Shown here piece after piece: positions 15,961-42,383 of a stretch of DNA of 64,000 nucleotides. How positions within the stretch are numbered: the stretch's first letter is position 1; each line of letters begins with the position of its first letter. The stretch comes from Zygnema cylindricum (Eukaryota; Streptophyta; Zygnematophyceae; Zygnematales; Zygnemataceae). The position numbers and the translations under genes are program-made. Below the pieces are notes generated by a model that was not told the DNA's origin, ran no database searches, and saw only the letters and a program-made list of their open reading frames with translations. Location: positions 1 through 64,000 of the forward strand of contig JBBHKE010000236.1 in assembly GCA_037447655.1 (NCBI GenBank), read 5' to 3'.

Positions 15961-15977
15961 AATAGTGAGAGCTTCAG

Positions 15978-22930: not shown

Positions 22931-24411
22931 ATATCTGTACTAGCGGAGATAATATCTTTACCATCGGAGGTAAATAATGACTTTTACAGAGGGCAATAAA
23001 TGTACTACCCAAAAATTTCAAAACGCAACGACAAAAAGGCGTCCGCAAACTTTGATGGTGGGAGCGTGACGCAAAAATTTCGGCGGAGTCGCAGCCTCCC
23101 TGACGGAAGGCACATGGCCTTTTTGACGTGTACGCATATACACACGCGCTCATCGTGGATTCTTTTTACGTTTTCCACGCGGCCTATTTTTACACTTTAT
23201 TTATTCGAGAATTGTCCTCATAGTGCACGGTCTTAGAAAACTGTAGGTTGGTGACGTGGCATCACGATTAAAAAATGTAATTAAAACCCGACAGTCCTAA
23301 TTTACGCTTACAACCTTGGACAATTTTTTGTTATGCTGTTTTCGTTGATTTTTTTTTTTTTGTACGAAGCTGTACGAAACGGTTCGGTCGTCAGTAAAAA
23401 ACCCCATTTTTTCGCTAATCGAAGTGAACCCTTAGTCAAATGTCGGTACGTGCTCTCACAGTGGAGCTCACGTGAAGTGAGAAACTACTTGCGCGCAGCC
23501 ATTTTATTTATATGTGGTTGCCGCAATTTTGTTACGGTAAACCTGCGCCGGCCGTGTGAATTTGTTTTTTTTTATGACGTTCGACGTTCGCAAGCGCGAC
23601 ACTTTTTAAGCCGTCATTACAATATTCCGCCAGTCAAGTTTGTTCGACGGGCTGACTGCCCCATATAATCTGAACTTAAAAGTACGGTGCGAAACTGTAC
23701 TTCAAATCTATAATTTCTGACAACTACCTGTGCGCAGCAAAAATCGTCTCTGCGATTAGCAATTCCTTATTTTTTTTACTTTTGCCCTTGAGCATTAACA
23801 GCTAAATTTTGCTCTAAGTACGTACACTATAACAAAAGTTCATATATCCGTATGTCATAGATGTCCAATTCGTACGGATTTGGCATATTTTCAGAAAATT
23901 ACGTAGTATTCGTTTGTTTCTTAGTTTTTCGCAAATTTCGTACTTTTTACTGTACGAACTGTATGCAAATGTACATCAGCGTGACTCTAAAAAATCCTTA
24001 AAAAATCTGAAAAAGTACGGACGATATACGAAAATGTACAAGCCTATACGGAAACTGTACCCTGATAATTGTAAAAGAATAGAAAATCTAAAACTGTTGT
24101 CCTGAAATATAAAAGAACGTACAAGAATGTACCCTAGAAACCCTAAAATCCCGCTTAAATAACCCGAAAATGTACGATAAGGTACGGCTATGATAATAAA
24201 TGTATGGCAATGTAACGCAGCTGTGCTAAATAATACGGAAATGTATGGCAACATACCATAGTGTAACAACTTTAGAAAGTACGAAGAAATACGGATAATG
24301 TACATAAATGTACGAATAATCTAAAACAGTGAAAAAAAAATATACGCAATGCACTAAAATATACCCATAAAACCATAAAATTCCCTAAAACCCTTAAATA
24401 ACCCTAAAATG
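22931..24411. other. Non-genic DNA with small repeats
   Basis: No gene is recognisable. It begins with two ~24-bp tandem units (ATATCTGTACTAGCGGAG, ATATCTTTACCATCGGAG). At 23345-23430 is a GTACGAAGCTGTACGAAAC...CTAATCGAAGTGAACCCTTA block also seen near 56725 and 57430. At about 23437-23660 is a relative of the arms of the foldback at 50501-52664. From about 23815 to 24330 GTAC tetranucleotides are very dense. Confidence 0.6.
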
Positions 24412-25361
24412 TGTTGTTTTGAAAAGTTAGTTTCGTGCGTACAAGACAAACTGTGCGTAACTGCTAAGTGGATTTCATATGGAGGCTCGAATAGATTCAC
24501 GGATTGGGGGAGCAAACGTACAAATATAATTAAAGTGGCGTGAACAGGTATTAACAAATGGATGGCGGATCGCGAAGGGATCCGATATGTCAAAACATAA
24601 TATTGAAATAGGCGTCGCAGGTACGGCGGAGCTGCGACGCAGTTAAGTCAACTCAGCTGCGGCTATTTTTATGATCCGTACGAACAAGCGCAGCCAGCGC
24701 AGCTGCGGATAATATGAATAGGATAGATTTCGAGTAATGATGATTGTACGGTAGTGGTAGCTTAGTAGTTGCTTAGTGGTAGCTTGGTTTCTGACATACG
24801 AAGAGTGCGGTGTAAATATTCCGTAAAACATAGGTTTGTCCTTTTGACCAATTAGTTTATTAGAGTAGATACAGTACGGCTGGTATGCCTCCGTACTCTG
24901 AGTATAACTTGCATCATAGATTATTTTATGTATCGCAGTCAAGTTTATCAAAGCAATGGCAAACTGTTTTCTGCATCTTTGACCTATTGGTATGATCACT
25001 CTGTTTGGTGCTTTCATGTGAAACTTTGTGGATTTATTCTATAATATAAAATCTATGTGTGTGTTAAGTTTCATTGTACTCCGGTATCTCTGTAAGATTG
25101 TGTGAGCAGTCAAAGTGGTTAGTTTGTGAAGCTGTCAGCTGTTTTTGTGAAACTCTGGAGCCTATATCTTCTAGATGCCTTGGTGGATTTAGCTGTAACT
25201 TGGGGAGTTAATAGTGTATATGGTATAATACATATTGGTACAGTTTGAGGTGATTATGCTCATTGCGGAGTAATCTGTGCTGTCTGAAACACAACTGTTT
25301 TTGAGGTAGTCTGTTGGTGTTTCCGTGAGTAATCCATGGCTGAAATAGGCTATGGACAACA
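24412..25361 (+). repeat. 5' LTR of Copia-5
   Basis: 950 bp, TGTTGTTTTGAAAAG...TATGGACAACA, aligning along its length with 29534-30496. It includes GC-rich repeats of GCGCAGCTGCGG near 24600-24720 and GTACGGCTGGTATGCCTCCG near 24866-24886. I found no tRNA-like module in this LTR family. Confidence 0.88.
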
Positions 25362-25564
25362 GGTTATGGGCCCACACCCATGGCAACCTATCTTTGATTT
25401 ATCAAAATATCACTACTGGAAGTGTGCACTTGAGAGCTACTTCGAGATGATGGAGCTAATTGACGTGGTGGACGGTACCTTGGCCGAAACATCAAATGGA
25501 TGGAAAAGGAAAAATCATGAGTGTCTAAGGGTTATCAAGAACTCAAGAACTATTGGGAATCTGT
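25362..25564 (+). pseudogene. Copia-5 primer site and gag N-terminal fragment
   Basis: GGTTATGGGCCCAC (25362-25375) is the half-tRNA-iMet primer site. The overlapping frame continues MGPHPWQPIFDLSKYHYWK, a copia gag opening (PIFD...YHYWK corresponds to the F-G-NY-W start of UBN2 capsids). It continues to DVVDGTLAETSNGWKRK and stops at about 25564. No later gag, protease or pol follows. Confidence 0.75.
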
Positions 25565-26045
25565 GAGTACTAAAAAGGAAAAGGTAGGTAAACTACAAAG
25601 CCGGTTCCATGGCAGGTGGTGCAGTTAATCGAGGTAGTAGAGCTTCATCGAGAGTTCACGTGTGAAGGTCATCACTATAAAACTATTTAGTTTCTATCCA
25701 ACGGTACCCACACCCGGGTATTGGACAACAGGTATCGGATAAAGTCGGTACCTAATGAGTGCCTTTGTGGTTNNNNNNNNNNCTGTCAGTCTTGGGGTTA
25801 TGTTTAAGTGGGGACACTTTATTGTGAAAGACACACGAGTCAAGGTGGTGTCTTACGTTTCAATCTTACACACTAAACCTGTGTAAGTGGGTGAAACTGA
25901 AAGGAAATCTTTACATCGGTGGGACCGTCTGTTTTTGAGACTGGCTAATGTGGGAACACATCGCACCTGAGGGAACTCGGGCGTCGTTTTTCTTAGTGAC
26001 TTTTACCTAAAAGTTCATTTAACTATCAATACCGACCGGTTTCAA
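25565..26045. other. Unassigned interior with assembly gap
   Basis: Non-coding sequence containing 10 N at 25773-25782. The sequence right of the gap has LTR-like character but I cannot place it. Nothing else is recognised. Confidence 0.6.
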
Positions 26046-26506
26046 CTGTACGACACAGTAATTTGATTGGTGCCGTACTTCAATAGATAGAGTTTTATAG
26101 CTGCCTCTCCCAGTGAGCACCTTGTATAAATGTCAAACTTTGGCCAGCCATAACTATCAATTTACTTGAAAATCCATTTTCAGTGATTCTTTTTGCTGCG
26201 GGCTCAAGGGAGTCCACGCTACACAAGGGTGTAATCGGTCAGAGTTTTTGTCTGCCAGGGTGGCTACATTTCTAAAGGAAAGTCAAAGTGGGTGAATGTG
26301 TCCAAATCACACATTCTAACTTTGCATTCTGTGGTGGAACTGAGCACACAGAAAGTGTTATTTCACAGGGGTGAATTTGTATTGGGGTTCTGACTGTCAT
26401 GGGGTCAGCCATTTGGATTTATATCAGGTTAGGAGTCGGCACTATCTAGATTAGCTTCTTTTGGATGTGCCAACTCTGAGGGCCAATGGAGGTCTCACAG
26501 TTTCAC
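26046..26506 (+). repeat. LTR fragment of the Copia-1 family, 3' part
   Basis: GATTGGTGCCGTACTTCA...AGATAGAGTTTTA and the conserved leader block with GGCTCAAGGGAGTCC (26201-26215) match 1855-2208. It ends ...GGTCTCACAGTTTCA. It is also matched, inverted, by 44021-44530. Confidence 0.75.
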
Positions 26507-27074
26507 GTGTCATCCGGAGTGGCGCCATCTGCAAACTACCAAATTGTCCTTTCCGCGATGTCGGTGCTAACAACGGCCGTCCGATTTACATCGTCATTTA
26601 AAAAGGACTGTCCAAATAAATGCCCGTACTATTTATTTCGTCCGGTACTAAAAGTACAATTGTTTGTATGCCCTATATACCGTAATCCAGTTAAATGGAA
26701 AACCCTACCTGTTACTATTTAAATATCTATCAAACCCTATATGTCCTAGCACTAGTGTTAGACTAAATGGACAAAGCTAACTGCTACGGGATGTTTGACA
26801 AACTGTAGGTACCAGGATAAATTCCTCGTTCTGTCAAATACCTTTTTAGTAAACATACCATTATCTACTCTTGTCTCGTCAAATACCTTTTTAGTAAACA
26901 TACCATTATCTACTCTTGTCTCTCTAGAGAGCTTAGGCAGCCATGGCTCTAGCTCCCTCTCCAACCTTCAGTGTCTACAACAAGTGTGGGGGCTTGGAGA
27001 AGGGAGTAAGAGGCAAACTGCCTCTGCTCTTTTTCTATCCTAATAAATACCTAGAATATACTCAAATATCAACA
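26507..27074 (-). repeat. LTR fragment of the Copia-1 family, 5' part, inverted
   Basis: The reverse complement starts TGTTGATATTTGAG at 27074 and matches the first part of the LTR at 1139-1800 (CAGTTTGCCTC, CCCACACTTG, GTTGGAGAGGGAG). A ~46-bp direct duplication (CAAATACCTTTTTAGTAAAC...) lies at about 26833-26925, where other family members carry the tRNA-like module. It is head-on to the preceding fragment. Confidence 0.7.
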
Positions 27075-27839
27075 CAAACTTTGGGCAGTGGGCATTGTGC
27101 ATTTGAGACTCTTTGAAGTTATAACTTTTGACATCTGACGTGGAACTTTTTATGTTTCACATGAATGGACATAGCACATTGTTTTTTCCAATATCACAGT
27201 TCGTAATAAGGGAGAATGTCTTTAACAATTTAAAAACAGGCTGCATACAGAAAACCTTAAACATTATGTTTTTGTAAGGACATCATATCCAATCGGAGTG
27301 CATTAAAAGCTCTTTTTACCTCAAGTACCCAAATTTTTCTCTCTTTTCTTTTCTCCTCACATTGCATTTCTATGCTCCAATATGTCTTCGTGGCATTTCT
27401 ATGCTCCAATAGGTCTTTGCGAAGGTTTCCAACTATAAGCAACTTGTTTCTTCAAAGCCTTTTGCATGCGGTCTTCAACCAACATTGCATTAAACTTGCA
27501 TTATAAGACATTAAAGTGTACATATGAACCTTAACACCTTTTGAAACCCTGAAATAATGCAACTTTCACAAACAACTACACCACGCAAGTGTTGATTAAG
27601 CTTTAAGCTTCCTATTTGGAAACCTTGGATCAAATTTGCACAATTAATACAAAACTTTCTCTTTCATGATTCTTTTGAGGCAACACGTTGTACTTTTGCT
27701 ATTTTGTTGAAGATAAAAATAACCTCGTTGAACCAGTTTAAAACAGGTCCATTGCTTTCTTTGTGAAGACCTACGCATGTACCTTTGTTTGAAGATTATT
27801 AAAGAAATTTACCAGCAGGTCGCATTATGTTTTTTGATA
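27075..27839. other. Unassigned non-coding stretch
   Basis: AT-rich sequence inside Copia-5. A short open frame on the minus strand (27257-27442) has no recognisable motif. A 24-bp direct repeat (GCATTTCTATGCTCCAATA) occurs at about 27364 and 27394. Nothing else seen. Confidence 0.5.
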
Positions 27840-28990
27840 TGGCACTTTGTTAACACACTATATTAACGTGCTATCCGGCTCTATTATGTTTTTTGACGTG
27901 GCACTTTGTTAACACACTTTGTTATCCACTTTATCAATGTGGCATGTTGTAGGTGTGGAACTTTGTTAGTGTGGTCCCTTGTTGATCTGGCTTTCTTTTG
28001 ACGTGGCAAGTATATCGTTGACATGCCGTTTTGCTGACGTGTCACCTTATTGACGTGAACGCACTTTCCTTACATGACACGTTCTAGATGTGGCACTTTT
28101 TCTTCGCGAACTTTTTTGACGTGGAAAAAAAGAATGTTGACTCGACATCTTTTTGATGCGACATCCATGTTGTTGACGTGTTCCTTGCTGTTGTGCGAAA
28201 AAAAAATGTTGACGTGGCGAGCAAATTGTTACGTGGCATTTAGTTCATGTACCATCTTGTTGGTTCCGCATGGATTGTGATGGTGTCGTAGACTGCTGAT
28301 GAATTAAAGATATTGTTGTTGGCGCCTTTTTGACATGCCATGCACTCTATTGACGTGGCACGTTGTGGCGCAGCAAGTAGATTGTTAACCTGGCATCCTG
28401 TACACTGATGACTTGGCACTCTGATAAAGCGGTAGCTTGCTAAGGTAATTAGATTGTTGACGTGGTACCTTGCTAACGTGCCATATGCTGTACTAATATG
28501 GTACTTTGTGGACGTGTCAATATTGTCTATGTGGCGTACATTGCTAACTTGGGACTACTAACGTGGCGGATTGATGTTGCAAAAAAGATTGATGGCATAG
28601 CATCTTGCTGACGTGGCCTATATTGTGCACTGTTCTAACGTGGCATCTTCCTAAGTTGGCAAGCACTTTGTTGACATGTCACACTGTAGACTTGGCGCCA
28701 TGCTAACGAGGCAAACAAATTCCTAATGTAACGATTTGTTGACGTGGCATCCACTATGTTAACGTGGCACTCAGTGGACACGGTGGGATGTTGGCGTGGC
28801 AAAAAAAAAACTTACGTGGCATGTCATTGACACGGCATTTACATTACGTGATACGTATGGTACCTTTATAAGGTGGCACCTTGCTAATGTGGCGTACGTT
28901 GTGTTAACATAGCCTCTATGGTGATGCGTCCTCTAAATGTCGTAACACCTTGTTGACGTGGCGTATGCTGTGCTAACGTGGCTTTCTACT
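27840..28990 (+). repeat. Degenerate array rich in TGACGTGGC
   Basis: At least a dozen ACGTGGC motifs, mostly on the plus strand and set in phrases such as TTGTTGACGTGGCA and GCTAACGTGGCAT, recur at irregular spacing of roughly 15-100 bp. The phrases look like diverged copies of a short unit (gacgtggcA-NN-ttgttgac). ACGTGGC is the core of plant G-box/ABRE sites bound by bZIP factors; whether any is used is unknown. Confidence 0.75.
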
Positions 28991-29237
28991 AACATAGCAT
29001 GTGGAGTCTGGCGTTTTTCAGAACAAATGTTCCACGCTGGCAATTTTCAAGAAAGCAAAGGATGGGAAACGGCGACGTCAGCATAAGCAATGGTGATGTG
29101 TTGGCCTTGCTAAATTTTTGAATGATGAGTACTAGAGGTTGTGAAAGAGAATCTTTAATCTCTAAATATTTTTATATTCTTGTTTTTGTAGATATATCTG
29201 CATACAGAATAGACTACTGAGTCTAAAGCTTTAGGGG

Positions 29238-29533
29238 AGTGTTGAGTTTGAAAGCTGTAGTCTCAGTAGACGAGGCTGTAAGGAAGAAGTTAAGGATAAA
29301 AAGAGCTGCTGCTAGGGTTGCGATGTCACAATAACGCAATATGGCAGCATAGCACTACAGGCTGCATAATTTATTCGTATAAGGCTACGATGTCGAAATT
29401 AGCGCAGCATGGTAGCATAGCAGAACACGCTGCACGTTTACTGCGCTGCGATATTGAACTAGCGCAGCGTAGCAATATAGCATTACACGCTACATATTTT
29501 TTTTGGGTGCACAAAACTAAATTTTCAAGGGAG
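29238..29533 (+). repeat. LTR-like start with ~62-bp tandem repeats
   Basis: GGGGAG then TGTTGAGTTTGAAAGC (29238) has the look of a polypurine tract plus LTR start, but no partner was found. Within it, three imperfect units of about 60-65 bp (GCGATGTCACAATAACGCAA..., ACGATGTCGAAATTAGCGCA..., GCGATATTGAACTAGCGCAG...) lie at about 29313-29505. The stretch ends in a purine tract before the Copia-5 LTR. Confidence 0.55.
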
Positions 29534-30496
29534 TGTTGTTTTGAAAAGTTAGTTTCGTTCATACAAGACTAACTGTGCGTAACTGCTAAGTGGATTTAAT
29601 ATGGAGGCTCGAATAGATTCACGGAATGGGGGAGCGAACGTACGAATATGATTAAAAAGGCGTGAACATGCACTAACAAACTGATGGCGGATCGCGAAGC
29701 GATCCGATATGTTAAAACAAAATATTGAAATAGGCGTCGCAGGTACGGAGGAGCTGCGACGCAATTAAGTCAGCTCAGCTGCAGCTATTTTTATGATCCG
29801 TACGGACAAGCGCAACAAGCGCAACTAGTGCAACTTCGGATAATATGAATAGGATAGATTTCGAGTAATGATGATTGTACGGTAGTAGTAGCTTAGTAGT
29901 TGCTTAGTGGTAGCTTCGTTTCTGACATACGAAGAGTGCGGTGTAAATATTCTGTAAAACAGAGGTTTGTCCTTTTAACTAATTAGTTTATTAGAGTAGA
30001 TAAAGTACGGGTGGTATGCCTCCGTACTCAGAGAATAACTTGCAGGACTTAGATTATTTTATGTATCGCAGTCAAGTTAATCAAAGCAATGGCAAACTGT
30101 TTTTTGCATCTTTGACCTGTTGGTGTGATCAATCTGTTTGTTACTTTCATATGAAACTTTGTGGAGTTATTTTGTAATATATAATATATATATGTGTGTG
30201 AAGTTTCATAGTATTTCAACATCTCTTTCAGATTTTGTGCGAAGTCTAAGTGGTTAGTTTGTTAAGTTGTTAGCTGTTTTTGGGTAACTTTGGAGCTTAT
30301 ATCTTCTAGATGCCTTAGTGGATTTGGCTATAACTTTGGGAGTTTACATTGTATATGGTATAATGCATATTGGTGCAGTTTGAAGTGATTCTGTTTATTA
30401 TGGAGTAATCTGTGTTGTCTGAAACAAAACTATTTTTGTGGTAGTCTGTGGGTGTTTCTGTGAGTAATCCATGGCTGAAATAGGATATGGACAATA
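29534..30496 (+). repeat. 3' LTR of Copia-5
   Basis: TGTTGTTTTGAAAAG...GGACAATA, 963 bp, aligning with 24412-25361. The last bases are ATA where the 5' copy has ACA. Immediately to the right the minus-strand gypsy pol begins. Confidence 0.87.
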
Positions 30497-30619
30497 GGTC
30501 TGAGGGGAACGGAACCACTTTCCTCGTGCCGTCTGACCATTTCCGGAGGAGAACGTCTCTGTCCGAATCACACACAGCCATTCGGGCATGCACTCGGGAT
30601 AATTGAATTCCAATCAAGT

Positions 30620-31343
30620 CGGGAAGAGGCGAGCCCTACTAGATGGATTGGAGTGCATCAAGGTCGTTCCAAATATCCTTACGTTCTGCCCATATTGGAG
30701 CCTGCCCCTCGATGTCGGCCAAGAAAGTTAACAGTCCCCCCCCAGACTGGGGAAGCCAAATGAAGGCGGAGGATGCTCGAATGAGTCCCAAACTAATTTC
30801 CAGATCCTCATCATGGCGAGCCACAGTAGAATCCATGGTGGAAGGATCAGGATTCCGGCTAAGTCCGTTGGCATTCCCATGGATTTCCCCTGCCCTATGA
30901 ACTATGTCGAAATCATATTCTTGCAAGATAAGAACCCATCTAACAAGATTGCCGGTTAGCAAACTATTCTCCATGATCCTTTTCAAGGGTTGGTGATCAG
31001 TTATCAGGGTGAAATGGACCCCGTAAAAATAAGGTCGGAAATGCTAAATTGCGCAAAGCGCTGCGAGTAGCTCTCTGTGGTAACTGCTATAACTCCCCTC
31101 TCCTCTGTTATTGCTTTGGCTGGCATAAGCCACCACATATTCAGCTCCGGCATCATCGACTTGAGCTAAAACTGCTCAAAATCCAAACCTGTTCCTATCA
31201 GTATAAAGGAGGAAATACCTTCGATGATCAGGCATCCAGAGCACGAGGTGCTACTTCAGAGCATCCTTCAAGAACTGGAAGGCGATCTGTTGCTCTTCGA
31301 CCCAGTGCCATTCTTCCTCCTTCCGTAATTGCTGAGTGAGGGG
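30620..31343 (-). pseudogene. Gypsy RNase H and start of integrase zinc region
   Basis: Read on the minus strand: EEWHWVEEQQIAFQFLK (RT tether), YTDRNRFGF...AVLAQ (RNase H strand with the first Asp), REL(L)A, ITDHQPLKRI, then VRWVLILQEYDFDIVHRAGE and NANGLSRNPDP, the usual end of gypsy RNase H. Beyond it, RKWSDGTRKVVPFPS at about 30510-30550 resembles the segment before the integrase HHCC finger. Several in-frame stops lie between 31000 and 31340. The integrase itself is absent. Confidence 0.85.
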
Positions 31344-32398
31344 CTAAGCGTGATTAGTGAACTCAAGGAAAAACCACCGATAGTAGTTGGCCAAACCCAG
31401 AAAGGTGCGAAGGGCCGAGATGTTCTGCGGTGGGGGAAGGGCGTCAAAGGCTGCCACCTTGACCATGCGGGGACCCACAGTCTCGAGAGTCACCTCATGT
31501 TCGAGGTAAATGATTTTCTGTACTCCAAAAATACCATTGCACGGGTGACATTTCAAACCCGCAGCTTGGAGGGCCTGAAGGATGATCTGGATATTCTCCA
31601 GGTGTTCGTCATAGGTTTTTGAGAATATGATCACATCATCAATATAGCATCGGGCACAATCAATTCCTCGGAGACCTTCGTCCATAGCCCGTTAGAATTT
31701 GGTTGGTGCATTTTTTAGCCCGAAGGGCATGTAAATCCACTCGTAAAGTCTAGATCTTGCCCAAAATGCCGTTCTCTCCCGGTGTTTTGGTTCCATGGCA
31801 ATCTGGTGGAATCCGTTTTTCATGTCCAATGTGGAGAAGTTGGTGGCCCCAGTACGCGAGTCGAACATCTCTTCCGTGGTCGGCATTGGATATCCGCTAA
31901 AAATGGTGGTCGTGTTCAGCATGCGATAGTCCCCACACATTCGGAAATCTACAGTTTTCTCGGATGAGTCCTTTTTAGGAGGGAGAACTGTGGGGGAACA
32001 AACCCATAGAGTCTGGTACTTTCCCGAACCAATCCGGCGTCAACCAAGGTTTGAACCTTAACTGTGATGAACTCCTTCTCCTTGAAGATGAGAGGATACT
32101 CTTTTTGCCAAACTGTTGTCGTTTCGTCAATAAAGTCAATCCGAAAGAGGGTTCCTTTGTAGATTCCGACATCTGTTTCTGACCAAGAGAACACCTGCTT
32201 GTTCTTGGCTAATAGTTTTGAGAGCCGCGCCTTTTGCTGAGGATCTAATTGCTCCCCTAGGGTCCAATCTATTTTCACAGGCTCAACAGAAGCCCAAGCC
32301 TCCAGCGGTCTACCCCAGAGGTTAATGTCAAATTCCAATCCTACTGGTGGATCTTCCTCTACCCCTCTGGCTAAGACGCTACTGCTGAGAACTTCCAC
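31344..32398 (-). pseudogene. Gypsy reverse transcriptase
   Basis: N-terminal part LSKLLAKNKQVFSWSETD and QKEYPL (about 32250-32080). Then, after a frame break near 31950, MCGDYRMLNTTT, FSTLDMKNGFHQIAM, TAFWARSRLYEWIYMPFGLKNA and the catalytic YIDD (31636-31647). The thumb/connection FLGLANYYRWFF follows. A TAG near 31692 and a frame break near 31950 interrupt it. The family is unmistakable; the DYR-LN and MPFGLKNAP motifs are those of Ty3/gypsy. Confidence 0.93.
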
Positions 32399-32532
32399 TA
32401 AGCTCTCACCATCTGAGCCGCCGCCCCCCGCCCCCCCAGGAAAACCTGTGGTGGTGAAATTAGAATTTTTATTCTCCTTTCTCTCCCCCCCTCAAGCTTC
32501 AAAGTTGCTTGCATCGCTAACAACTGAGGAGT

Positions 32533-33614
32533 TTAAAGGTAAATAGCCCTTGATTTTGGGGACTTGAGACTGGAAAAGGCGAGGGCATGCTTGAGCACCC
32601 ATGTGATCGAATTCAAATCCATAATTTTCCCAATTAGGTCGCACCTTTGAAGGTGTGAAATACCTGGTGTTGTCATTGTGCCTTTATGAAATCCCATTGC
32701 TTCTTCCCGTTTTGCAATTGTCGGTGTTGTCCAAATTCCCGCCTTACTGTCAAAAAATATTCCCGCTGCCCCTTTCCGATAAGCGTGATTGTGAGGGAAA
32801 GAGACCCATGTAGGGAGTGCTTTCCGTAGGAATCCCGATTTGTTACACTGAAAGAAAGGGGAGCTGTCGGGTCGCATCACAAGGATGGCCATCCTACCTT
32901 TCCCAAGTATTTGCTGCACCGAATTGTTCGGGTCGGGGGTTTGCTTATCCAATAGCTGCCGGAGAAATAAGAGCGAGATCATCTTGGTCCAATATGCCCT
33001 GACTCTGTGTGCTCTTTATCCCATGTGGGCGACGTCGAAAACCAAGGGAGCTCCTAAAATCCGGGTTATCTAATTGTAGCTGTCAGCAACCTGTTTCCGT
33101 TTATCATCTCATGGGTGGACATTCTCCAAAACGTACCCCACCGGTGTGTTCGGAGTTGTTAAATCCACGAGATTAGTTCGATCATCCAATTAAATGCCCG
33201 GCTCTTGCGTTCTTGATGCCCTTTGCCTTGTCCCGCTAAGGAGTATCTTTGACAAGGTCATCCTGCCATCACCAAATCTTTTCTTTCCAAACTGGCTAGA
33301 TGGGGTTTCAGGATGTTTTTTGTATTCTGTGGAAGACTCCGGTGAGCTTTGGAAAAGGCAGACACTGGAAGCTGTTGAGGATATATGGTGTGAAGTTGGT
33401 GAAGGCGGTGATCGCTGACAGCCCGTGCCTCAAGTGATATCTCCACGGCTCTATATGACTCTATCCGATATCTTGTTTTTAGAACAGCTTCTAAATCTGA
33501 ACTGATTCCAGAAAAGAGAGATAAAATTCGGAAGCCAGAATCTAGGACTGTCAATGACACCAAATGTCGGTTGAATTCTTCGTTACCGGACCTGGTTTTA
33601 GAAGCATCAGACAT
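32533..33614 (-). pseudogene. Cytosine-5 DNA methyltransferase domain inside the gypsy element
   Basis: From 33614 downward on the minus strand: motif I region RILSLFSGISSDLEAVL (S-adenosylmethionine loop; second Gly of FxGxG is Ser); AVEISLEARAV (acidic residue binding the ribose); DLVMAG, then TGA at 33258-33260 where Trp is usual, then PCQ (33249-33257, catalytic Cys kept) with AGQGKG; a frameshift near 33160; VGYVLENVHP (motif VI, ENV at 33118-33126); VAHMG-stop-RAHRVRAYWTKM (motif VIII, about 32994-33030); then MRPDSSPFF, RKALPTWVSF, EEAMGF (about 32688-32709) and IMDLNSITWVLKHALAF. The order and spacing are those of C5 methyltransferases that act on cytosine in DNA. It lies between protease and RT in the same orientation as the polyprotein. 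At least one frameshift and three in-frame stops inactivate it. A host gene fragment is less likely because pol continues on both sides. Confidence 0.88.
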
Positions 33615-33739
33615 GGTCTAGGAACGACTTCTTTTATTGGTAAAGTCGAGAAAGTCTCATCCACTTTCCGCCAGAGTTTCGCCACAAGTAATAATCTATC
33701 ATTATATTTCTCTTCCCACCACTTGGAAGTGAGGAATTG

Positions 33740-34393
33740 CTAGAATTCTTCAACTATATCTGTGGAACTGCCAAACAATTCTGTCGGAGATGATGTAGTA
33801 TACATCGGGTAGTAACCAGACACTAGGACATTTGTCTTCCCCCGGTTCCATAAATCCAAAAGAACCACCACTTTGGTTCCTTCGAGATTTTCGGGGTTCC
33901 GAACGGTACACTGTTCTTTCCACACGCTCAAACTCATATTTAGCCGGGTCCAAGTAGCCATTCCCAACAGAATTTCGAATTGAGTCCCTTCCACCACTAA
34001 GAAGGGAAGCTCAATTTTCACTTGTTGGCCTCCGTCGTCAGAAAACTCGATTTCCATGGCCTTGATAATCCCATGGACGAGCTTACTGCCGCTGCTTACA
34101 ATGCTTAAGCAGATAATGCTTGGGGAGATTTCGTGCCGCAGTTCCTTGGGCATTTTCTGCAAAGCGGAGGTGGTGATAAGATTGGGGAGCGCTCCAGTGT
34201 CGAACACAACGTCCTGGTATCCTCCGTACACGTAGAACTTGAAGTTTTGGGTTTGGTTCAGTATAAGAGCCACTGATAAGGCTTTGTAGTCCCTATCCAC
34301 TATAGGGGTTTTCGGATCTGTGGACAAAAAGACTGCGGTTGTCGAAGTGGCCATGTCGACCCTCCCTTTTTGAGAGTGGAACTCTTCTCCCAA
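33740..34393 (-). pseudogene. Gypsy aspartic protease
   Basis: A 217-residue open stretch with the retropepsin active site VVFDTGALPNLIT (DTG at 34193-34201), a second hydrophobic strand ELPFLVVEGTQFEILLGMATW (split by family numbering; here described only), and the ILLG motif of the flap-to-C-terminal sheet. It lies directly between gag and the methyltransferase domain. The open frame is intact over the protease itself. Confidence 0.85.
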
Positions 34394-36320
34394 TGTAGGA
34401 TTTCTTTAGGCAGGTTGTGGGAGGATGCTAGAGTCTTTAAGAGGGTGAGGACGTATGGCATGAGGTGCTTGACTAGCATGGCACCCCGTTTGGAGGAAGG
34501 ATGGGTAGCTTTCAGTGAAGATGGGAGTGAATCCGGTTTTTGCGGATCTATCCTGTCTTTCTTCCTCGTCCTCCTCGGAGCTAGAATTTGGGATTGGCCA
34601 AGTTTGGGGATTGTCATTTTCGGGGCGTTCTGCCATGTATCTCTCAAACGAGTCTTGATTGTCCTTTTTCTCTCGCTCCACTGACTCCTTTTCCCGTTGT
34701 TGTTTCTCGCTTTGGATGTTTTCAAAACCGGGAGGTAGTTTAGGTTTGATAGACAGGGAGGGCAGGTGAGTCGCTTTGATCCCGAGGCCAATGTCGTTGT
34801 TGATAATAACCGCCCAGGGAGTAAATCACAAAGGCTCTGTAGCCTTCCGGTTGTGGTCCCGCTGTCCCATTCTCTACTTGTCTCTTCTTTTTTCAAAGGT
34901 GGAATTTTGGAGTTGTCGACGTCTGTCTCCCACCCCAACATTCCAAGCTCCGGACACGAAGTTTCGGGCATGGTGGGCATTTGAAGGTTCCAAATCCCAA
35001 CCCAATAAGTCATCATCATTAGCACCCGCTGTGCTTTGAAGTTCAAGCTCTGCGAGCTTCTGTAACAACTCATGTTTTTGTATTTGGAGTTGTTGTGCTA
35101 CTGTGAGAGGAGCAAGCCGCGAAGGAGATCCCTAGCGGAGGGCAACCAATTTTGCACCCATTGCGGCCAGTTGCTGACTTTGCTGCTGGATGAAGATCTT
35201 CGGTGAAAGTCTGGTCGGAGCCACCGGTGCTTGCTCTGGTTCCTCTTTGGTAAGCGGAACTCTACGTCCCTAAGGATAGAGGAGTTGAAGTGGGAGTGGG
35301 TTAATGACAGTTTCTCCTTCGCTAGTGAATAGGGCGAACTGCATCATTTCTTTGGGGACCCCATTATTTTGGAAACATTGCGTTTCCTTCTGCCCGATGA
35401 AACCGCAAGCCTTGCATTTTGTTCCTTCGGAACACTATTTGCTGCGGATTTCATTTGATATCTGAGCGTCATCAAATTTTGGAAGTTTGATTTGTCACAA
35501 CTGGGATTGCGATATTTTGGAGGTTTCTCCTCGGGGAGTCGAACCATAAGTGTCTTTCGTTACTGGAGTTTTCTCCCCCCCTCCCGTTCCCCTTTAAGCC
35601 TTTCTTGCTACTTCCGGGTCTTTTCTGCGCGTTCTTTCTCCAATTCCTTCAACTTCAATGCCAGCTCCGGTTTAAGTTTCCGTGTGCAGTGCTTCCACCC
35701 ATGCCCTGTTTGATGACAATTTAGGCAATTGTAAAGAAAAACTCTTTCGTCTGCTCCCATTCCCGGTTCTGACCCGCAATCAGCCACTTGTTTCCCTTTA
35801 AGCTTCCGCAAAGCTTGAAGTTCAGCCTGTTTCTCCTCACTCAAGGAGGTCTCCCTGGCGAATCGTGCAAAATTTGCGCAAGCCTTGCCGGTCACGGCCT
35901 TCTCACTTGCATCACTGCGGACACAGTGGTCGTACAACTTCATCGCCACCAACGAAAAGTCCTTGGCAGAGGGATTGATGTCTTGAACTGCTTGTTTGGC
36001 AATCCAAATAACCAAGGTAATTTGCCTTGTTGGTCCGAAAAAAATTACGGACGACGATGAAATATTTGGTTGCCATCGCTGAAAGATCAATAGTTGGCAG
36101 CTTTGTCTTTTGACAAAGGCTGGAGAGTCGGTTAAAGACGGTATGCGGAGTCTCGTTCTTCAAATATCGGAATTCCGTGAACTCCTTGATCCCAAACTCG
36201 TTCCTCTCTTTGTAAAGGAGTCTCCAGATGTTAAGCAAGGTGGTACAAGGGTTGGGATTGGCAACCATACGAGTTATTGCTTGGGTTGCCTAGATTGCTT
36301 GCAGCTGGTTAACATAGGCA
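34394..36320 (-). pseudogene. Gypsy gag, central and C-terminal part with zinc knuckles
   Basis: Next to Copia-4 comes a retrotransposon gag segment (LLNIWRLLYKERNEFGIKEF, LKNETPHTVFNRLSSLC, 36268-36000). Then a coiled, charged region with EEKQAELQALRKLKGKQ and the CCHC knuckle CLNCHQTGHGWKHC (about 35685-35730). A second knuckle-like CKACGFIGQKETQC lies at about 35380-35420. After a Gln-rich stretch near 35080-35180, an acidic linker (SSSEEDEEERQDRSAK) leads to the protease. Frame changes occur several times. Confidence 0.8.
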
Positions 36321-36325
36321 CTTCT

Positions 36326-36974
36326 TGTAGGATCTTAGGCAAAAGAGTTTTACTTAAAATAATTCTCAAAACATAAATCATTACACAGCGGAAGCTCATA
36401 AAAGACAAGAGGAATATTCAACCAAATAGATTTATAAGTGTTCTTGGCCGAAGCCTCTTTACAACATGTCTCTTCTCTCTTCTCTCTCTTCACTCTTCTC
36501 TTTAAATATTCTCTACTCCAAGATTAATCCTCTATGATTAATTGATTGATAAATTAATACTCTGCACATGTACGCTGTTACCTATATATACTCGGTACTC
36601 TACACTAAGAGACAACAAGATAAGACAAGCAGAACTTAGCGTAGCGACGAAGTCTGTCCCTAGCTGACTGTGCACTCTTTCAATGAAAATTCCACGAAGG
36701 AAGGCGCATACGCTTCTTCCTTTGAAACAACAAAAATCCAAACGTTGACTTAACACGTGTCGCCTCACGAACACACCTGCACGCAAATTGTAACACCTGA
36801 GCACGAAACAAACAAGTGACGCGAAACGAAACAGTATGTTTCGTTCTCGGACAACAAAAGTACTGTCGCGAAACGACATCGTACTTTTTGTATGATGACG
36901 CGACAGTTCGCGTCAAACAAATATAAGTTGGTATGACGCTTCGCGAAATGTCGCGAAACGACAATAATCCAACA
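36326..36974 (-). repeat. 3' LTR of Copia-4
   Basis: 649 bp, TGTAGGATCTTAGG...AATCCAACA in window direction. The adjacent polypurine tract is at 36975-36986 (AAGAGGGGGAT on the minus strand). Confidence 0.96.
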
Positions 36975-37007
36975 ATCCCCCTCTTATTGTCGGAATCGCC
37001 AAACTCT

Positions 37008-38549
37008 TCAAAATAATCCAAGTTTCGGTCGCCCCCTCTCAAACACATCATGTGTAGCAGCCTTTGTCAACAAATCAGCCGCCTCCTCTTTATTTGGTAC
37101 GTACGAAAATTCAATCTCGTTCGTCGTAACCAAATCTCTTACAAAATGCCATTGGATCCTGATGTGTTTCGTCCTCTTGTGAAACACAGGATTTTTCACC
37201 AACGCCATAGAACTCATGCTGTCAGAATAAATCGTCATACAACCAATAGGAATACTTAACTCACGTAACATCTCTTTAATCCAAATAGAAGCCTTAGCTG
37301 CATGACATGCAGCCATATACTCAGATTCTGTGGAACTTAACGCAACCGTAGGTTGTAGTCTAGAACTCCACGAGATCGAAGCTCCTCCAAAAATAAATGC
37401 ATATCCTGACGTAGACTTACTTGAATCAAAATCGCCGCCCCAATCCGCGTCACAATACCCAACACACTCTAAAGAATTTTTGTCAGAAGTAAACATAAGT
37501 CCAAGATCAATCGTACCAACCAAGTATCGAAATATACGTCGTACGGCCTCCCAGTGTGCCTTCTTTGGCTCGTGACAATAACAGCTGACGATGGAAACCG
37601 CGGCCGAAATATCTGGACGAGTACCAACGCTAAGGTACATAAGTGAACCAACCGCCTCTCGATATGGTACGTCGATAGATTCCTCCTCTTCAAACTTACG
37701 AATGTGTAGGTTTGCATCCAACGGTGTAGAAAGCGGTTTCGCGTCAGACATACCAAATCTCTCCAAAATCTCCTTGCAATATTGAGCTTGACTCAATTTA
37801 ATGTTCCCCTCCTTGTCACGTATTACTTCAATCCCCAAAATATATCGTACCACTCCAAGATCCGTTACTTTGAAATGTAATCCAAGATAACGTTTCAACT
37901 CATCAATGCGCTCCAACTTATCGCATGCCATCAAGAAATCATCCACATAAACGGAAAAGATGCTTTGATCAACGCCTTCACCTTTCACGTAAACTCCAGA
38001 ATCGGACGTAGTCCGTACAAATCCAAACTTCAATAGTACTTGATAAAGTCTCAAATACCAAGTGCGTGGTGCTTGTTTCAAACCATATAATGATTTTCGC
38101 AAACGCCATACATTTCTTTCCTGCAAAGGAGAGACACCTTCCGGTACTTTCATATATACCTCTTCCTCCAACTCACCATTTAAAAACGCGGTTTCAACGT
38201 CCATTTGATGGACGTGCTTCTTCCCCATCGCTGCAATTGAAATAATAATCCGTAGTGAGTCGAACTTCACCACGGGAGCATAAGTCTCCTTGAAATCGAT
38301 TCCCTCACGTTGTTGGAACCCCTTACACACAAGCCTTGCCTTGTACTTAATTATTTCACCCGACGCTCCAGTTTTGGTTTTTAAGACCCACTTTGCATCA
38401 ATAGCCTTTTTCCCCTCCGGTAATTTCACTTCCTCAAAAGTTCGATTATCAACCACCGACTTAAATTCTTTCTCCCATGCCGGTTTCCACTTACTCTCCC
38501 AATCAACCGACCTTCTAGCCTCGACATAATATTGAGGGTCGCCGGTCAT
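37008..38549 (-). CDS. Copia-4 reverse transcriptase-RNase H
   Basis: An uninterrupted 513-residue frame that makes DNA from the element RNA. RT: EGKKAIDAKWVLKTK near residue 45, HQMDVETAFLNGELEEE with Asp117, SLYGLKQAPRTW, catalytic YVDD at residues 201-204. RNase H: Asp367 in CDADWGGD, Glu408 in SSTESEY, Asp443 in YSDSMSSMAL, then HIRIQWHFVRD. All catalytic acids are present. The Met at 38549 is internal to the original polyprotein: the same frame continues upstream through a single TAG (38568-38570) into the gag-integrase frame. Expression would need stop-codon readthrough, internal initiation, or the TAG may be a recent mutation. Confidence 0.95.
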   Translation of the reverse strand: MTGDPQYYVEARRSVDWESKWKPAWEKEFKSVVDNRTFEEVKLPEGKKAIDAKWVLKTKTGASGEIIKYKARLVCKGFQQREGIDFKETYAPVVKFDSLRIIISIAAMGKKHVHQMDVETAFLNGELEEEVYMKVPEGVSPLQERNVWRLRKSLYGLKQAPRTWYLRLYQVLLKFGFVRTTSDSGVYVKGEGVDQSIFSVYVDDFLMACDKLERIDELKRYLGLHFKVTDLGVVRYILGIEVIRDKEGNIKLSQAQYCKEILERFGMSDAKPLSTPLDANLHIRKFEEEESIDVPYREAVGSLMYLSVGTRPDISAAVSIVSCYCHEPKKAHWEAVRRIFRYLVGTIDLGLMFTSDKNSLECVGYCDADWGGDFDSSKSTSGYAFIFGGASISWSSRLQPTVALSSTESEYMAACHAAKASIWIKEMLRELSIPIGCMTIYSDSMSSMALVKNPVFHKRTKHIRIQWHFVRDLVTTNEIEFSYVPNKEEAADLLTKAATHDVFERGRPKLGLF

Positions 38550-38561
38550 ATTCTCCGTAAG

Positions 38562-38570
38562 TGATTGCTA
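38562..38570 (-). promoter_or_regulatory. In-frame TAG in a leaky readthrough context
   Basis: On the minus strand the sequence is TAG CAA TCA. This fits the UAG-CAR-YYA consensus known to favour readthrough in plant RNA viruses such as tobamoviruses. It is the only stop between the integrase and RT frames of an otherwise intact element. Whether it is used, or is a chance CAG to TAG mutation, cannot be told from one copy. Confidence 0.5.
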
Positions 38571-41500
38571 CAAAAGAAACTCCGTCTCCTTAGCATCGGA
38601 AAGAAAATAATGCGAATTCGATGCATTTTCCCCTTTTCGATCGTAAGTGAGTTTCTCCGGTTTCTTCCCTTTTGTAATCCGAGAGCTCCTCCTAATAACT
38701 TGCTCCTCCTCCTTTTCCTCTTTCTCTTCCTCGGATTCAACTTCAATTTCTTTTTCACTTGATTTAAAACTCGATTTAGAGCTTTGAGATTTCCGAATGT
38801 TCGAAGGCACTCGGGAATCCAAAGATCCATCACTCTTACTTTCAAATTCAGTTTCAACCGATTTCTTCAAATTTTTTTTCTTAGATTTCTCATTCGGTTC
38901 CACATCGGATTCCGAATCCCCAATGAACGGAAAACTCTCAATTTCACTCTCCTCATAAAAATCCAAATTTTCTTTAAATTTCCCAACGGAATTCATGGCG
39001 GATTTGAGATCCTCATGAAAATCCACATTCCGAGATTCCTCCACGGTGTGACGTGCCGGATCATAAACTCGGTATAAACTCCCCTTCGCACTATATCCAA
39101 TAAAAATTCCCGGCCAACTCCTTGGTGCAAATTTCCCCTTCCTCTTAATTGATTCCACATAAAGCGTAGCATGACATCCCCAAATTCTCAAATGATGAAC
39201 CGTGGGCTTTCTCCCACTCCATAACTCCTCCGGTGTTTTACTACCGGAAACCGAAGTGAGTCTTCGGTTACAAATGTAATTTGCCGTAAGAATCGCATCT
39301 CCCCACAAAAACATCTCTCGTCCGGAGCTATGAACCATCGCACGGACCATTTCTTGTAAAGTGCGATTCTTCCTCTCGGCCACTCCATTTGACTCCGGAG
39401 AATAAGACGCCGTGAATTGGTGCCTTATCCCCCACTCCTTACAATACCCCTCAAAAACAACAAACTCCCCTCCATTATCCGATCGAATAGACTTAAGCTT
39501 CTTATCAATTTGCCTTTCGGCCATCACATGCCATTCTTTAAATTTTTCAAATGCATCCGATTTCTTTTTCAATAAATAAACCCATGACTTTCGGGAAAAG
39601 TCATCAACAATCACCAAAGTATACTTGTTACCTCCAATTGTCTCGGGTTTAATATGTCCACAAAGATCAATGTGGACTACCTCCAAAGGACTTTGAGCAC
39701 GATGCTTGATGTCTTTATTCGGATGGGATTTCCGAATTTGACGTCCTTTGCTACATCCTCCGCATCCATTCACCTTCTCACCGGATGCGAGGTCCAAACC
39801 CCTCACCGAAGAATGACGAATCATCTTCTTCAAACTTACCTCGGATGTATGACACATTCGATGGTGCCATAAGGTAAGATCACCTTTCAACTCCGAAATT
39901 TGATGTGAAATTCCCTCGGTGGGAACTTTAGATTTCGGCCTCCTCCATAAGAGCCGACTATGATTCGCATCCGTTACAACTCCTTCTCCAATTACATTCC
40001 CCTTCTCATTCCAAATCTTGATAGATTGATCACCTCTCGCAAGTAAACTTCCACCACTCTTTTGGATTTGTGGAGCGCTTAACAAATTCACCGAACCGTC
40101 CGGAATGTAAAGAGTATTTTGAAGACGATACTCCGTCGATCTCTCTTTCCCATCATTATCCCATGAAAGAAGATCAAGCCGAACCGTGCCAACCGTATCA
40201 ACCGAAATGACATGGCCGCTTGCTACCGTAATAAACTTTGGAACCGTAAGTTCCATCATGTCATCAAACAAGGTAGCATCCGTGCAAACATGGTGAGATG
40301 CCCCCGTATCAATGATCCACTCTTTCTCTAAATTTCCTTCACTACTCACCGAATCAAGAGTAAGGTTAAGAACCGGAAAAAGATCACCGGTTTCATTACC
40401 ATAGTCGAAGTAATTTGCATTACCATAACCTCGGCCACCACCGCGGTCTCCTCCTCGACCGCCACCTCGGCCACCTCTATCACCTCCTCTACTTCCTCTT
40501 CCACCTCCGGAATCTCGACTCTTCGAATAACATTGAGAGATCGTATGTCCCCACTTACCACAAAAGTGACATTGCTTGTCCTTATCCGGACAAGATGAAG
40601 ACAAATGTCCAAGCCGGTTACACCGGTAGCATGTCACATTGGAAAGATCCGAAGGGACCTTCGGTGGACGACCTTGCTCCCTCTTGTTGCCTCGGCCGCC
40701 ACCACCACCTCTCGGGCCACCTCCTCTACCACCTCCTCTACCACCGGCATAGTTAAGATCCGGGGTTTCGGGAGTAGTAGAGTTAAGAACTCCTCCTCCT
40801 CCACTTGAAGAAGCCGATGGAGTTCCCTCCGACATTTTGATAAAATTAACGGTGAATCCGAAATTATTATCCACCTTCGCTCGTAAGATAGCCTTAAGAT
40901 GCGAAAGCTTGTCCGGCAAAGCGTTAAGAAAAACGCTTAATTTATCCGCATCCAAAATAACTCGACCATTGTTGAGTAATTGCTCGAGTATAATATTGAA
41001 GCGCTTCACGGCATCATCCATCAATTCATTTGACTTGATTTTAAAATTCATAAAGTCCGTATAAACATATTGACCCTTGTTCTCAACGCCTTTCTCATAT
41101 TGCTCCTCAAGTGCTTGCCAACACTCATGGGCCGTTCCGTGAGCGAGGAAATTATCAAGCACGGAAGAAGTGCAATTCTTCATCAAACCGGTCGTTGCCG
41201 CAATATCCTTTAACCTCCATTGAGCACGTGCCTTACTCTCCGTTGGCATCTTCTCTTCTCCATTGACAATCCTCCAAAGCCTCTTGAGAATAAGTTGATT
41301 TGAAATAAATTTCTTCCAAACCGCATAATTGGTGCCATTAAAGGCCACGGATTTCCCCGACATATTATAAACATCTTCGTTATCCAATGCCTCTTCAAAA
41401 TCTGAATCTTCCTCTATCTTTGCTTTACCTTTCCTAATTCTCTCTTTTATCTCACTCTCATTAGCTCCTCCACTGAATGGATCGGCAGCCTGAAATGAAG

Positions 41501-41693
41501 CAAATTCTCTTTTCTCACTAGATTGAGTTTGAAATCGTGAATCTACATATCTCATTAATGTATCAAACATCTCCTCAAATTTTCTCTCCGTATTCCGAGT
41601 CTCCTCAAATTGAGAACCCGAAAAACCGAACTCTCTTGCTCTCTCCGAAATCGACATGGGGGAAGGAGTATTTCTGTTCTTCTTCCTCCCCAT
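38568..41693 (-). CDS. Copia-4 gag-protease-integrase polyprotein
   Basis: A 1041-residue frame from ATG 41693. Capsid (UBN2-like) about residues 105-290, opening FNGTNYAVWKKF; Gly/Arg-rich stretches; two CCHC knuckles at 355-368 and 375-388; protease active site DTGAS at 462-466; GAG-pre-integrase HHCC (WHHRMCH near 610-615, CGGC 644-647); integrase core with Asp676 (HIDLCG), Asp739 (RSDNGGEF) and Glu773 (VAERKNR); a Ser/Glu/Lys-rich linker from about 905 to the end. Length and order are normal for copia. The start is 43 bp inside the LTR-distal leader, just after the primer site. All key residues are intact. Confidence 0.95.
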   Translation of the reverse strand: MGRKKNRNTPSPMSISERAREFGFSGSQFEETRNTERKFEEMFDTLMRYVDSRFQTQSSEKREFASFQAADPFSGGANESEIKERIRKGKAKIEEDSDFEEALDNEDVYNMSGKSVAFNGTNYAVWKKFISNQLILKRLWRIVNGEEKMPTESKARAQWRLKDIAATTGLMKNCTSSVLDNFLAHGTAHECWQALEEQYEKGVENKGQYVYTDFMNFKIKSNELMDDAVKRFNIILEQLLNNGRVILDADKLSVFLNALPDKLSHLKAILRAKVDNNFGFTVNFIKMSEGTPSASSSGGGGVLNSTTPETPDLNYAGGRGGGRGGGPRGGGGGRGNKREQGRPPKVPSDLSNVTCYRCNRLGHLSSSCPDKDKQCHFCGKWGHTISQCYSKSRDSGGGRGSRGGDRGGRGGGRGGDRGGGRGYGNANYFDYGNETGDLFPVLNLTLDSVSSEGNLEKEWIIDTGASHHVCTDATLFDDMMELTVPKFITVASGHVISVDTVGTVRLDLLSWDNDGKERSTEYRLQNTLYIPDGSVNLLSAPQIQKSGGSLLARGDQSIKIWNEKGNVIGEGVVTDANHSRLLWRRPKSKVPTEGISHQISELKGDLTLWHHRMCHTSEVSLKKMIRHSSVRGLDLASGEKVNGCGGCSKGRQIRKSHPNKDIKHRAQSPLEVVHIDLCGHIKPETIGGNKYTLVIVDDFSRKSWVYLLKKKSDAFEKFKEWHVMAERQIDKKLKSIRSDNGGEFVVFEGYCKEWGIRHQFTASYSPESNGVAERKNRTLQEMVRAMVHSSGREMFLWGDAILTANYICNRRLTSVSGSKTPEELWSGRKPTVHHLRIWGCHATLYVESIKRKGKFAPRSWPGIFIGYSAKGSLYRVYDPARHTVEESRNVDFHEDLKSAMNSVGKFKENLDFYEESEIESFPFIGDSESDVEPNEKSKKKNLKKSVETEFESKSDGSLDSRVPSNIRKSQSSKSSFKSSEKEIEVESEEEKEEKEEEQVIRRSSRITKGKKPEKLTYDRKGENASNSHYFLSDAKETEFLL

Positions 41694-41721
41694 GCGCTCC
41701 CTCTCTATCTCCGAAGCACTA

Positions 41722-41733
41722 GCTTTGATACCA
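41722..41733 (-). other. Primer binding site of Copia-4
   Basis: TGGTATCAAAGC on the minus strand, two bases from the LTR, complementary to the 3' end of initiator tRNA-Met. This is the usual plant copia site and differs from the half-tRNA sites of the other copia elements here. Confidence 0.85.
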
Positions 41734-41735
41734 AT

Positions 41736-42383
41736 TGTAGGATCTTAGGCAAAAGAGTTTTACTTAAAATAATTCTCAAAACATAAATCATTACACAGCG
41801 GAAGCTCATAAAAGACAAGAGGAATATTCAACCAAAAAGATTTATAAGTGTTCTTGGCCGAAGCCTCTTTGCAACATGTCTCTTCTCTCTTCTCTCTCTT
41901 CACTCTTCTCTTTAAATATTCTCTACTCCAAGATTAATCCTCTATGATTAATTGATTGATAAATTAATACTCTGCACATGTACGCTGCTGCCTATATATA
42001 CTCGGTACTCTACACTAAGAGACAACAAGATAAGACAAGCAGAACTTAGCGTAGCGACGAAGTCTGTCCCTAGCTGACTGTGCACTCTTTCAATGAAAAT
42101 TCCACGAAGGAAGGCGCACACGCTTCTTCCTTTGAAACAACAAAACTCCAAACGTTGACTTAACACGTGTCGCATCACGAACACACCTGCACGCAAAATG
42201 TAACACCTGCGCACGAAACAAACAAGTGACGCGAAACGAAACAGTAGTTTCGTTCGCGGACAACAAAAGTACTGTCGCGAAACGACATCGTACTTTTTGT
42301 ATGATGACGCGATAGTTCGCGTCAAACAAATATAAGTTGGTGTGACGCTTCGCGAAATGTCGGGAAACGACAATAATCCAACA
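41736..42383 (-). repeat. 5' LTR of Copia-4
   Basis: 648 bp, the promoter-bearing LTR. A TATATATA box lies at 41993-42000 on the minus strand, a plausible core promoter placed upstream of the leader. Its right edge is followed by target duplication CTTCT. Confidence 0.95.

Follow-up and report, generated by a model that had tools for sequence, protein, structure and literature searches.

The 64,000-nucleotide stretch of Zygnema cylindricum DNA analyzed in this study (hereafter the window; positions 1-64000 of contig C179, in an assembly of 352.8 Mb and 2,689 contigs) was confirmed to hold a decayed, dead copy of an LTR retrotransposon of the Ty3/gypsy type, whose family polyprotein contains a cytosine-5 DNA methyltransferase (MTase) domain of the DNMT3 type. 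The original prediction, which placed such a domain between the protease (PR) and the reverse transcriptase (RT) of a gypsy element, was supported both by a profile match and by copies found in the same genome. Cells normally use a DNA-methylating enzyme of this kind to silence these elements. A kept and selected enzyme of the silencing mark makes it testable whether the elements write their own DNA methylation, and a conserved UAG codon in front of the domain offers a concrete handle on the dose and packaging of the MTase.

The element in the window and its methyltransferase domain

The features of the window copy and of the insertions that interrupt it are listed in Table 1. The protease and the RT that flank the MTase were both backed by relatives, and the row nearest to the RT was a copy from the same genome, with an identity of 83% over 146 columns. 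The protease open reading frame (ORF) spans positions 34405-33740 and is in frame with the stretch behind the UAG codon; its Pfam matches remained below the cut-offs. The gag region is split by a complete nested copia element, which is flanked by a 5-bp target site duplication (CTTCT or a one-base shift thereof) and contains long ORFs of 1,058 and 519 codons. The upstream part of gag probably lies beyond this insertion, from about 42.4 kb upward, with approximate limits. At the other end, the integrase (IN) is truncated at about 30.5 kb by a repeat-flanked stretch, for which no target site duplication was found; a copia-gag-like ORF was recognized by eye just inside it. Flanking LTRs of the gypsy copy were not found, and its ends are either lost or located beyond the insertions. 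Additionally, the 64-kb window contained no Rfam match at gathering scores.

Table 1. Coordinates of the gypsy copy in the window and of the insertions that interrupt it.
Feature	Position	Strand	Evidence
Remnant of gag that includes a single CCHC zinc knuckle (CLNCHQTGHGWKHC, inside ORF 36159-35608)	35330..36289	-	Weak matches to the gag of P0003
Aspartic protease (DTG)	33842..34405	-	PF13650, E 0.018, below cut-off; relatives P0029 and P0003
UAG codon with CAAUUC directly behind it, separating PR from MTase; candidate programmed readthrough site	33740..33742	-	
DNMT3-type cytosine-5 MTase domain, broken	32536..33617	-	Translation, Pfam, PDB, relatives
MTase motif IV, PCQ (catalytic Cys)	33249..33257	-	Translation, row alignment
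MTase motif VI, LENV	33118..33129	-	Translation, row alignment
Reverse transcriptase (YIDD), split between reading frames	31344..32311	-	PF00078, E 2.2e-11; relatives
RNase H	30639..31250	-	PF17917, E 2.8e-10; relatives
Integrase zinc-binding region, start only	30500..30638	-	P0001 aligned up to residue 1128; limit by eye
Repeat-flanked stretch that terminates the gypsy element but does not belong to it	24411..30499	+	Direct repeats 24411-25364 / 29533-30499, 88.7%
Nested copia element, not part of the gypsy element	36325..42383	-	LTRs 36325-36974 / 41735-42383, 97.8% identical

The motifs of the MTase were read from a three-frame translation of the minus strand over positions 32400-33800. The domain is split over two frames (frame 0 at 33617-33168, followed by frame 2 at 33159-32536) and is interrupted by four in-frame stops; its reading frame changes once, near 33.16 kb. 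The predicted motifs LSLFSG (I), AVEI, PCQ (IV), LENV (VI), RAHRVR (VIII), and EEAMGF were all present and ordered on the minus strand, such that motifs I, IV (PCQ), VI (ENV), VIII (RxR), and X stand in sequence. Taken singly, the five open pieces all failed to match the Pfam family PF00145, even at an E-value of 1. When the domain was read through with an X for each stop, the expected profile match was obtained and was significant (E 8.4e-7; 29.2 bits, with the gathering cut-off at 22), and DNMT3C, DNMT3A, and DNMT3B were the top solved structures in the PDB, from an E-value of 1e-4.

Against 5.8 billion database sequences, the window domain, embedded in X padding to the length of a polyprotein, matched two proteins among 4,696 candidates, with E-values of 2e-77 for P0001 (1,494 aa, MTase-RT-RH-IN, where RH is RNase H) and 1.2e-74 for P0002 (MTase-RT). 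Since the genome itself added 112 further places that match most of the length of the domain, the resemblance is not a product of chance. The two relatives scored 39.2 and 44.6 bits, respectively, against PF00145. The bare 359-residue piece of the window recovered none of 2,101 candidates at an E-value of 0.001, probably because full polyproteins exceed the length range of that search.

A profile of the family was built from nine MTase domains and was used to rank 57 sequences up to an E-value of 0.01. DNMT3A scored 92 bits, followed by DRM (47), HaeIII (43), HhaI (41), and a DNMT2-type enzyme (35), while no DNMT1 or CMT was among the 57. The AlphaFold model of the relative P0009 (mean pLDDT 68; mostly 75-92 in the MTase part, with several blocks at 54-68) was nearest to DNMT3 entries, with a TM-score of 0.84 by target length for 8te1_B, and the best 50 of its 206 structure matches at an E-value of 0.001 were all DNMT3. 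By profile and by predicted fold, the element MTase appears nearest to the DNMT3 family, nearer than to DNMT1/CMT, DNMT2, or the bacterial enzymes. It resembles host DNMT3 and DRM in its DNMT3-type catalytic core, with DRM second in the profile ranking, but differs from host DNMT3, DRM, and chromomethylase in being fused to gag-pol domains. DRM has a rearranged motif order, whereas the order I-IV-VI-VIII-X of the element is unrearranged.

Copies in the same genome and selection on the domain

With more than 100 relatives in the genome, some of them fresh and unbroken, the MTase looks like a kept part of the family and not a stray insert. A search of the genome with PF00145 gave 123 scored matches among 782 candidates, all above the cut-off. 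With the window MTase as the query, 113 of 1,856 candidates were scored and 114 rows were obtained, including the window itself and two rows from one candidate, C606; the 112 other places had identities of 57-72%, and the best of them covered residues 2-359. The matched stretch was free of stops in 18 of the 114 rows.

Two classes of the element coexist in the genome, a window-type class (L009, L012, L022, L024, and others) and a second class (L010, L013, L016, and others). Among 20 stretches of 10 kb fetched around PF00145 matches, 19 hold the element MTase. Locus L025 (C514:121800-131790) was read by eye as an exon of a chromomethylase-like host gene and not as an element MTase. This exon and 27 matches to GRAS in the genome point to a streptophyte host; Dirigent and MIR160 gave no match, a result that does not demonstrate their absence. 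The placement of the domain was shared by these other copies: a protease lies upstream on the same strand in all 19 MTase loci, and an RT lies downstream in 17 of them (as a 35-residue piece in L023). An integrase was matched in 15 of the 19 loci and a PHD finger in 13, while gag was matched in a part of the copies only. Ten further loci (L030-L039) included a protease in nine cases and an RT in all ten. The Ty3/gypsy order gag-PR-RT-RH-IN with a DDE integrase was found in the own-genome copies L009-L020 and in P0001. Copies with the predicted gag-PR-MTase-RT order were recovered as well, for example the unbroken L010, a single ORF of 2,395 codons that encodes gag-PR-MTase-RT-RH-IN-PHD. When the relative P0039 from Closterium was used as the query, an RT match lay 289-463 bases behind the MTase on the same strand in 45 of 45 scored candidates, these being the best of 3,866 in a search that favors complete copies; the own-genome matches to P0039 reached at most 50%.

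Direct repeats at the ends were seen in six of the 20 fetched stretches (L010, L013, L014, L015, L016, and L027) and in none of the other 14, so that most copies are undated. The LTR pieces within the fetched stretches were identical in L010 (524 of 524 bases) and L016 (352 of 352 bases), and the end repeats shared identities of 99.8% in L014, 96.8% in L027, 91.9% in L015, and 90.9% in L013. Given the identical LTR pieces and the long open ORF, some copies of the family were recently active.

These copies bear on whether part of a methyltransferase gene of the host merely landed by chance in one gypsy copy, which is barely conceivable. The broken state of the window copy and its open pieces that do not match PF00145 speak for such a landing, but the explanation is refuted by the 112 other places and the same placement in the copies read. 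The long open polyproteins of other organisms and the purifying selection on the domain also stand against it, and the host exon at L025, chromomethylase-like by eye, belongs to a different family.

Selection was estimated as NG86 dN/dS between own-genome copies. For the MTase, the values were 0.12-0.42 among the 13 pairs listed of 66, those with pS under 0.62; for the RT, they were 0.045-0.28 among the eight pairs with a defined value of the ten listed. The MTase domain is thus under purifying selection and is, on the whole, less constrained than the RT. The catalytic Cys, the motif VI Glu, and the first motif VIII Arg were kept in all 50 MTase rows, while the motif IV Pro was replaced by Glu in 16 of the 50. 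Of the 11 rows from the own genome, the four window-type rows read PCQ and the seven second-class rows read ECQ. Bearers of ECQ included L010, L013, L016, L017, and L028 of the second class, P0019, P0021, P0033, and others, and L010 carries the Glu-Cys pair despite its single open frame and identical LTR pieces. A Glu in place of the motif IV Pro may weaken catalysis.

A retention of the domain for nucleic-acid binding instead of DNA methylation, by which it would methylate or chaperone the element RNA or prime packaging, was regarded as unlikely. The replaced motif IV residue in 16 rows, including that of the single-ORF L010 with its identical LTR pieces, is in its favor, as is a LINE-type enzyme that did not methylate DNA in yeast (PMC5890265). 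The three residues invariant in all 50 rows argue against it, and the fold and profile are those of the DNA-acting DNMT3, with the tRNA-acting DNMT2 scoring much lower by profile.

The UAG codon between protease and methyltransferase

In elements of the window type, the protease frame hits a stop and continues in the same frame with QFPISKRWE. This stop was compared among 19 loci (L008, L009, L012, L019, L021-L024, L030-L039, and the window). It was a TAG codon in all 19, and it was followed by CAATT in 18 and by TAATT in L024. The longest invariant run over 17 aligned sequences of the region was TAGCAATT, and protein homology was in frame on both sides of the codon. One of 18 pattern matches, on the plus strand of L001, was unrelated and was dropped from the count. 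No covariation was detected in the predicted RNA structure around the UAG, where none of the 11 predicted pairs had changed on both sides. The leaky UAG-CAA-UUA context of tobamoviruses resembles the UAG-CAA of the element. The conserved codon and context suggest a programmed readthrough at the UAG in the window-type class of this genome, such that the enzyme would head the readthrough Pol.

It is improbable, by comparison, that the invariant UAG marks the true end of gag-PR and that the MTase-Pol ORF is translated by other means, such as reinitiation or splicing. Downstream ORFs of 1,520 and 1,525 codons do start just behind the UAG in L009 and L012, as this explanation would have it, but the same-frame homology begins directly behind the codon (QFPISKRWE), no Met common to all copies was seen there by eye, and the near-invariant UAG-CAATT has the likeness to the leaky viral context already described.

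The readthrough proposed for the window-type class would not extend to all relatives. The proteins P0001 and P0002 begin shortly before the MTase, where they would be expected to start if a stop of this kind lay in front of them. The next relative, P0003, runs from gag through the MTase into the RT without a stop, and hence the stop is not common to every relative of the window class. In the second class, no such stop was present in L010. In addition, 15 ORFs of the Marchantia type and related ones were measured, and they end 66-145 residues after the MTase, so that the enzyme there would be made together with gag-PR. These ORF ends, together with the single ORF of L010 that needs no readthrough, indicate that the dosing step is not general.

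Relatives, published precedents, and a proposed role

A search with the P0001 domain identified 41 proteins at an E-value of 0.001 or better among 5,404 candidates. The named sources included Marchantia polymorpha (five proteins), Closterium sp. NIES-53/54 (three), and one labeled Mesvir1, which was taken as Mesostigma by its label only. One of the Marchantia relatives, P0005, is Mp_4g09160 and is named Marchantia polymorpha subsp. ruderalis. No relative found was named Klebsormidium, and two queries against a viral contig collection recovered no relative.

By BLAST, the relatives fall into two kinds of domain order, PR-MTase(-RT) and RH-MTase-IN(-PHD). The latter forms one clade of 11 rows in the MTase tree (SH-aLRT 99), in which P0030 shows the MTase alone, and a single change of MTase position was scored across the 46 rows that had a state assigned. 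Behind the integrase, P0028 and P0022 of this clade have a PHD finger, and P0028 also lists PF21743. The window-type rows were grouped in both the RT tree (98/95) and the MTase trees (83 and 84), which fits a common descent of the two domains. The MTase trees were quick trees with SH-aLRT support only. DNMT3C, P0021, and P0038 were omitted for their long branches, P0034, P0037, P0039, and P0041 are in neither MTase tree as their matched stretches were under 220 residues, and the RT tree was built without the L004 row.

Published precedents for such a capture, as anticipated in the original prediction, include KnitGypsy-Dnmt3 and the Symbiodinium elements (PMC5890265), and this kind of element is consequently not new. 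That paper has a section titled after hundreds of DNMTs in retrotransposons. KnitGypsy-Dnmt3 of Klebsormidium nitens is described as intronless, under purifying selection, and with conserved catalytic residues (de Mendoza et al., 2018; PMC5890265). Compared by description, the Zygnema element shares with it the LTR gypsy structure, a DNMT3-related domain inside the Pol polyprotein, the lack of introns, purifying selection, and conserved catalytic residues, and the own-genome copies fall within this type by their DNMT3-related domain in a gypsy Pol ORF under purifying selection. Unlike KnitGypsy-Dnmt3 as described (PMC5890265), the present family includes more than 100 copies, a UAG before the MTase, a PHD finger after the integrase, and one clade with a relocated domain. 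SymbioDIRS-Dnmt3 of Symbiodinium similarly has a DNMT3 in a retrotransposon Pol, but with a tyrosine recombinase and split LTRs, in contrast to the plain LTRs and DDE (rve) integrase found here. SymbioLINE-Dnmt also places a C5 methyltransferase on a retroelement, but this is a LINE with an orphan DNMT lineage in ORF1 (PMC5890265). A DIRS identity of the Zygnema element was ruled out by its DDE integrase (PF00665 in P0001, and an integrase in 15 of 19 loci) and plain end repeats. The protein P0042 (1,313 residues) appeared DIRS-like by eye, with an N-terminal DNMT3-like domain, an RT, and a tyrosine-recombinase-like C-terminus, and it is a distant outgroup with 26% identity to the P0001 domain.

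The main text of PMC5890265 does not mention a PHD finger, a chromodomain, or Marchantia. Among the openly available full-text articles covered, none was found to report a UAG that separates the PR of such elements from the MTase, a PHD finger in them, or Marchantia elements with DNMT3. Within that scope, the copy number in this genome, the placement of the UAG, the PHD finger, the relocated clade, and the occurrence in a liverwort may tentatively be taken as new.

The last 75 residues of L010 matched PHD fingers of PHF12, KDM5 (lid, 5A, and 5B), BAZ2A/B, WSTF, PHF21A, AIRE, and UHRF1 among the best 60 of 86 matches, the closest solved relatives being PHF12, KDM5 (lid), BAZ2B, WSTF, and PHF21A. 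Many of these fingers read the unmodified H3 tail. Chromoviruses are gypsy elements with a chromodomain after the integrase; the Zygnema element resembles them in having a chromatin reader behind the integrase, but this reader is a PHD finger and not a chromodomain, and a methyltransferase is present in addition.

The most likely role of the element enzyme would be the de novo methylation of its own cDNA, and the full sequence of steps, read from the domains and their order, is slightly favored over its being wrong at some point. A minority of translation events would continue past the UAG of the window-type elements and yield the enzyme as the first Pol domain. The MTase would then be packed with the RT into the particle, be freed by the protease, and methylate the new double-stranded cDNA in the particle or on the way to integration. 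A new copy would arrive with the host's own mark and might so be hidden from responses to unmethylated foreign DNA; alternatively, new methylated insertions would be quiet and hence less harmful. The PHD finger that follows the integrase is closest to fingers that read unmodified H3 tails, and it could help to tether the complex to chromatin suitable for a methylated copy. In Symbiodinium, a DNMT3 from a retrotransposon was reported to methylate CG sites de novo, and the authors proposed that the cDNA is methylated (PMC5890265). CHG/CHH methylation is reported for the Klebsormidium elements, which the same paper describes as silent (PMC5890265); the same would be expected of any transposon. 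The tendency of the MTase toward higher dN/dS than the RT weighs against the cDNA-methylation account.

Self-restraint, by which the enzyme would silence its own new copies and their kin in trans, sparing the host and favoring the element in the long term, was given a low probability. It is among the roles proposed in PMC5890265 and fits the many decayed copies in this genome, where few of the matched stretches are free of stops. It needs no place inside the polyprotein, however, and is indistinguishable here from the methylation of cDNA.

The preferred reading of cDNA methylation can be set in a wider scenario, which is possible but somewhat doubtful. One DNMT3 capture that predates the divergence of the streptophytes now carrying it (Mesostigma, Closterium, Marchantia, and the present host) may have founded a gypsy lineage with both a writer (DNMT3) and a reader (a PHD finger for unmodified H3), rebuilding out of separate components the pairing with an H3K4me0 reader known from animal DNMT3. 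The dose would be set by the place of the MTase relative to a recoding stop, namely behind the UAG in the window type, ahead of the stop that closes the first ORF of the Marchantia type, and within a single ORF in the second class, and the copies would be delivered pre-methylated.

The window also contains two gag-PR stretches on the minus strand (15230-17380 and 47739-49415) that are kin to the gag-PR of P0019, with up to 38% identity. Neither an MTase nor an RT was matched in them, and they are probably non-autonomous relatives of the MTase elements. The first sits between direct repeats at 13460-14708 and 19360-20568 (83%). Additionally, two long ORFs of 346 and 397 codons, both with low-complexity stretches, lie on the minus strand at 61344-63999; the upstream one includes a plant-type C2H2 zinc finger (QALGGHRNGH), and the other ends in DLDLKLAL.
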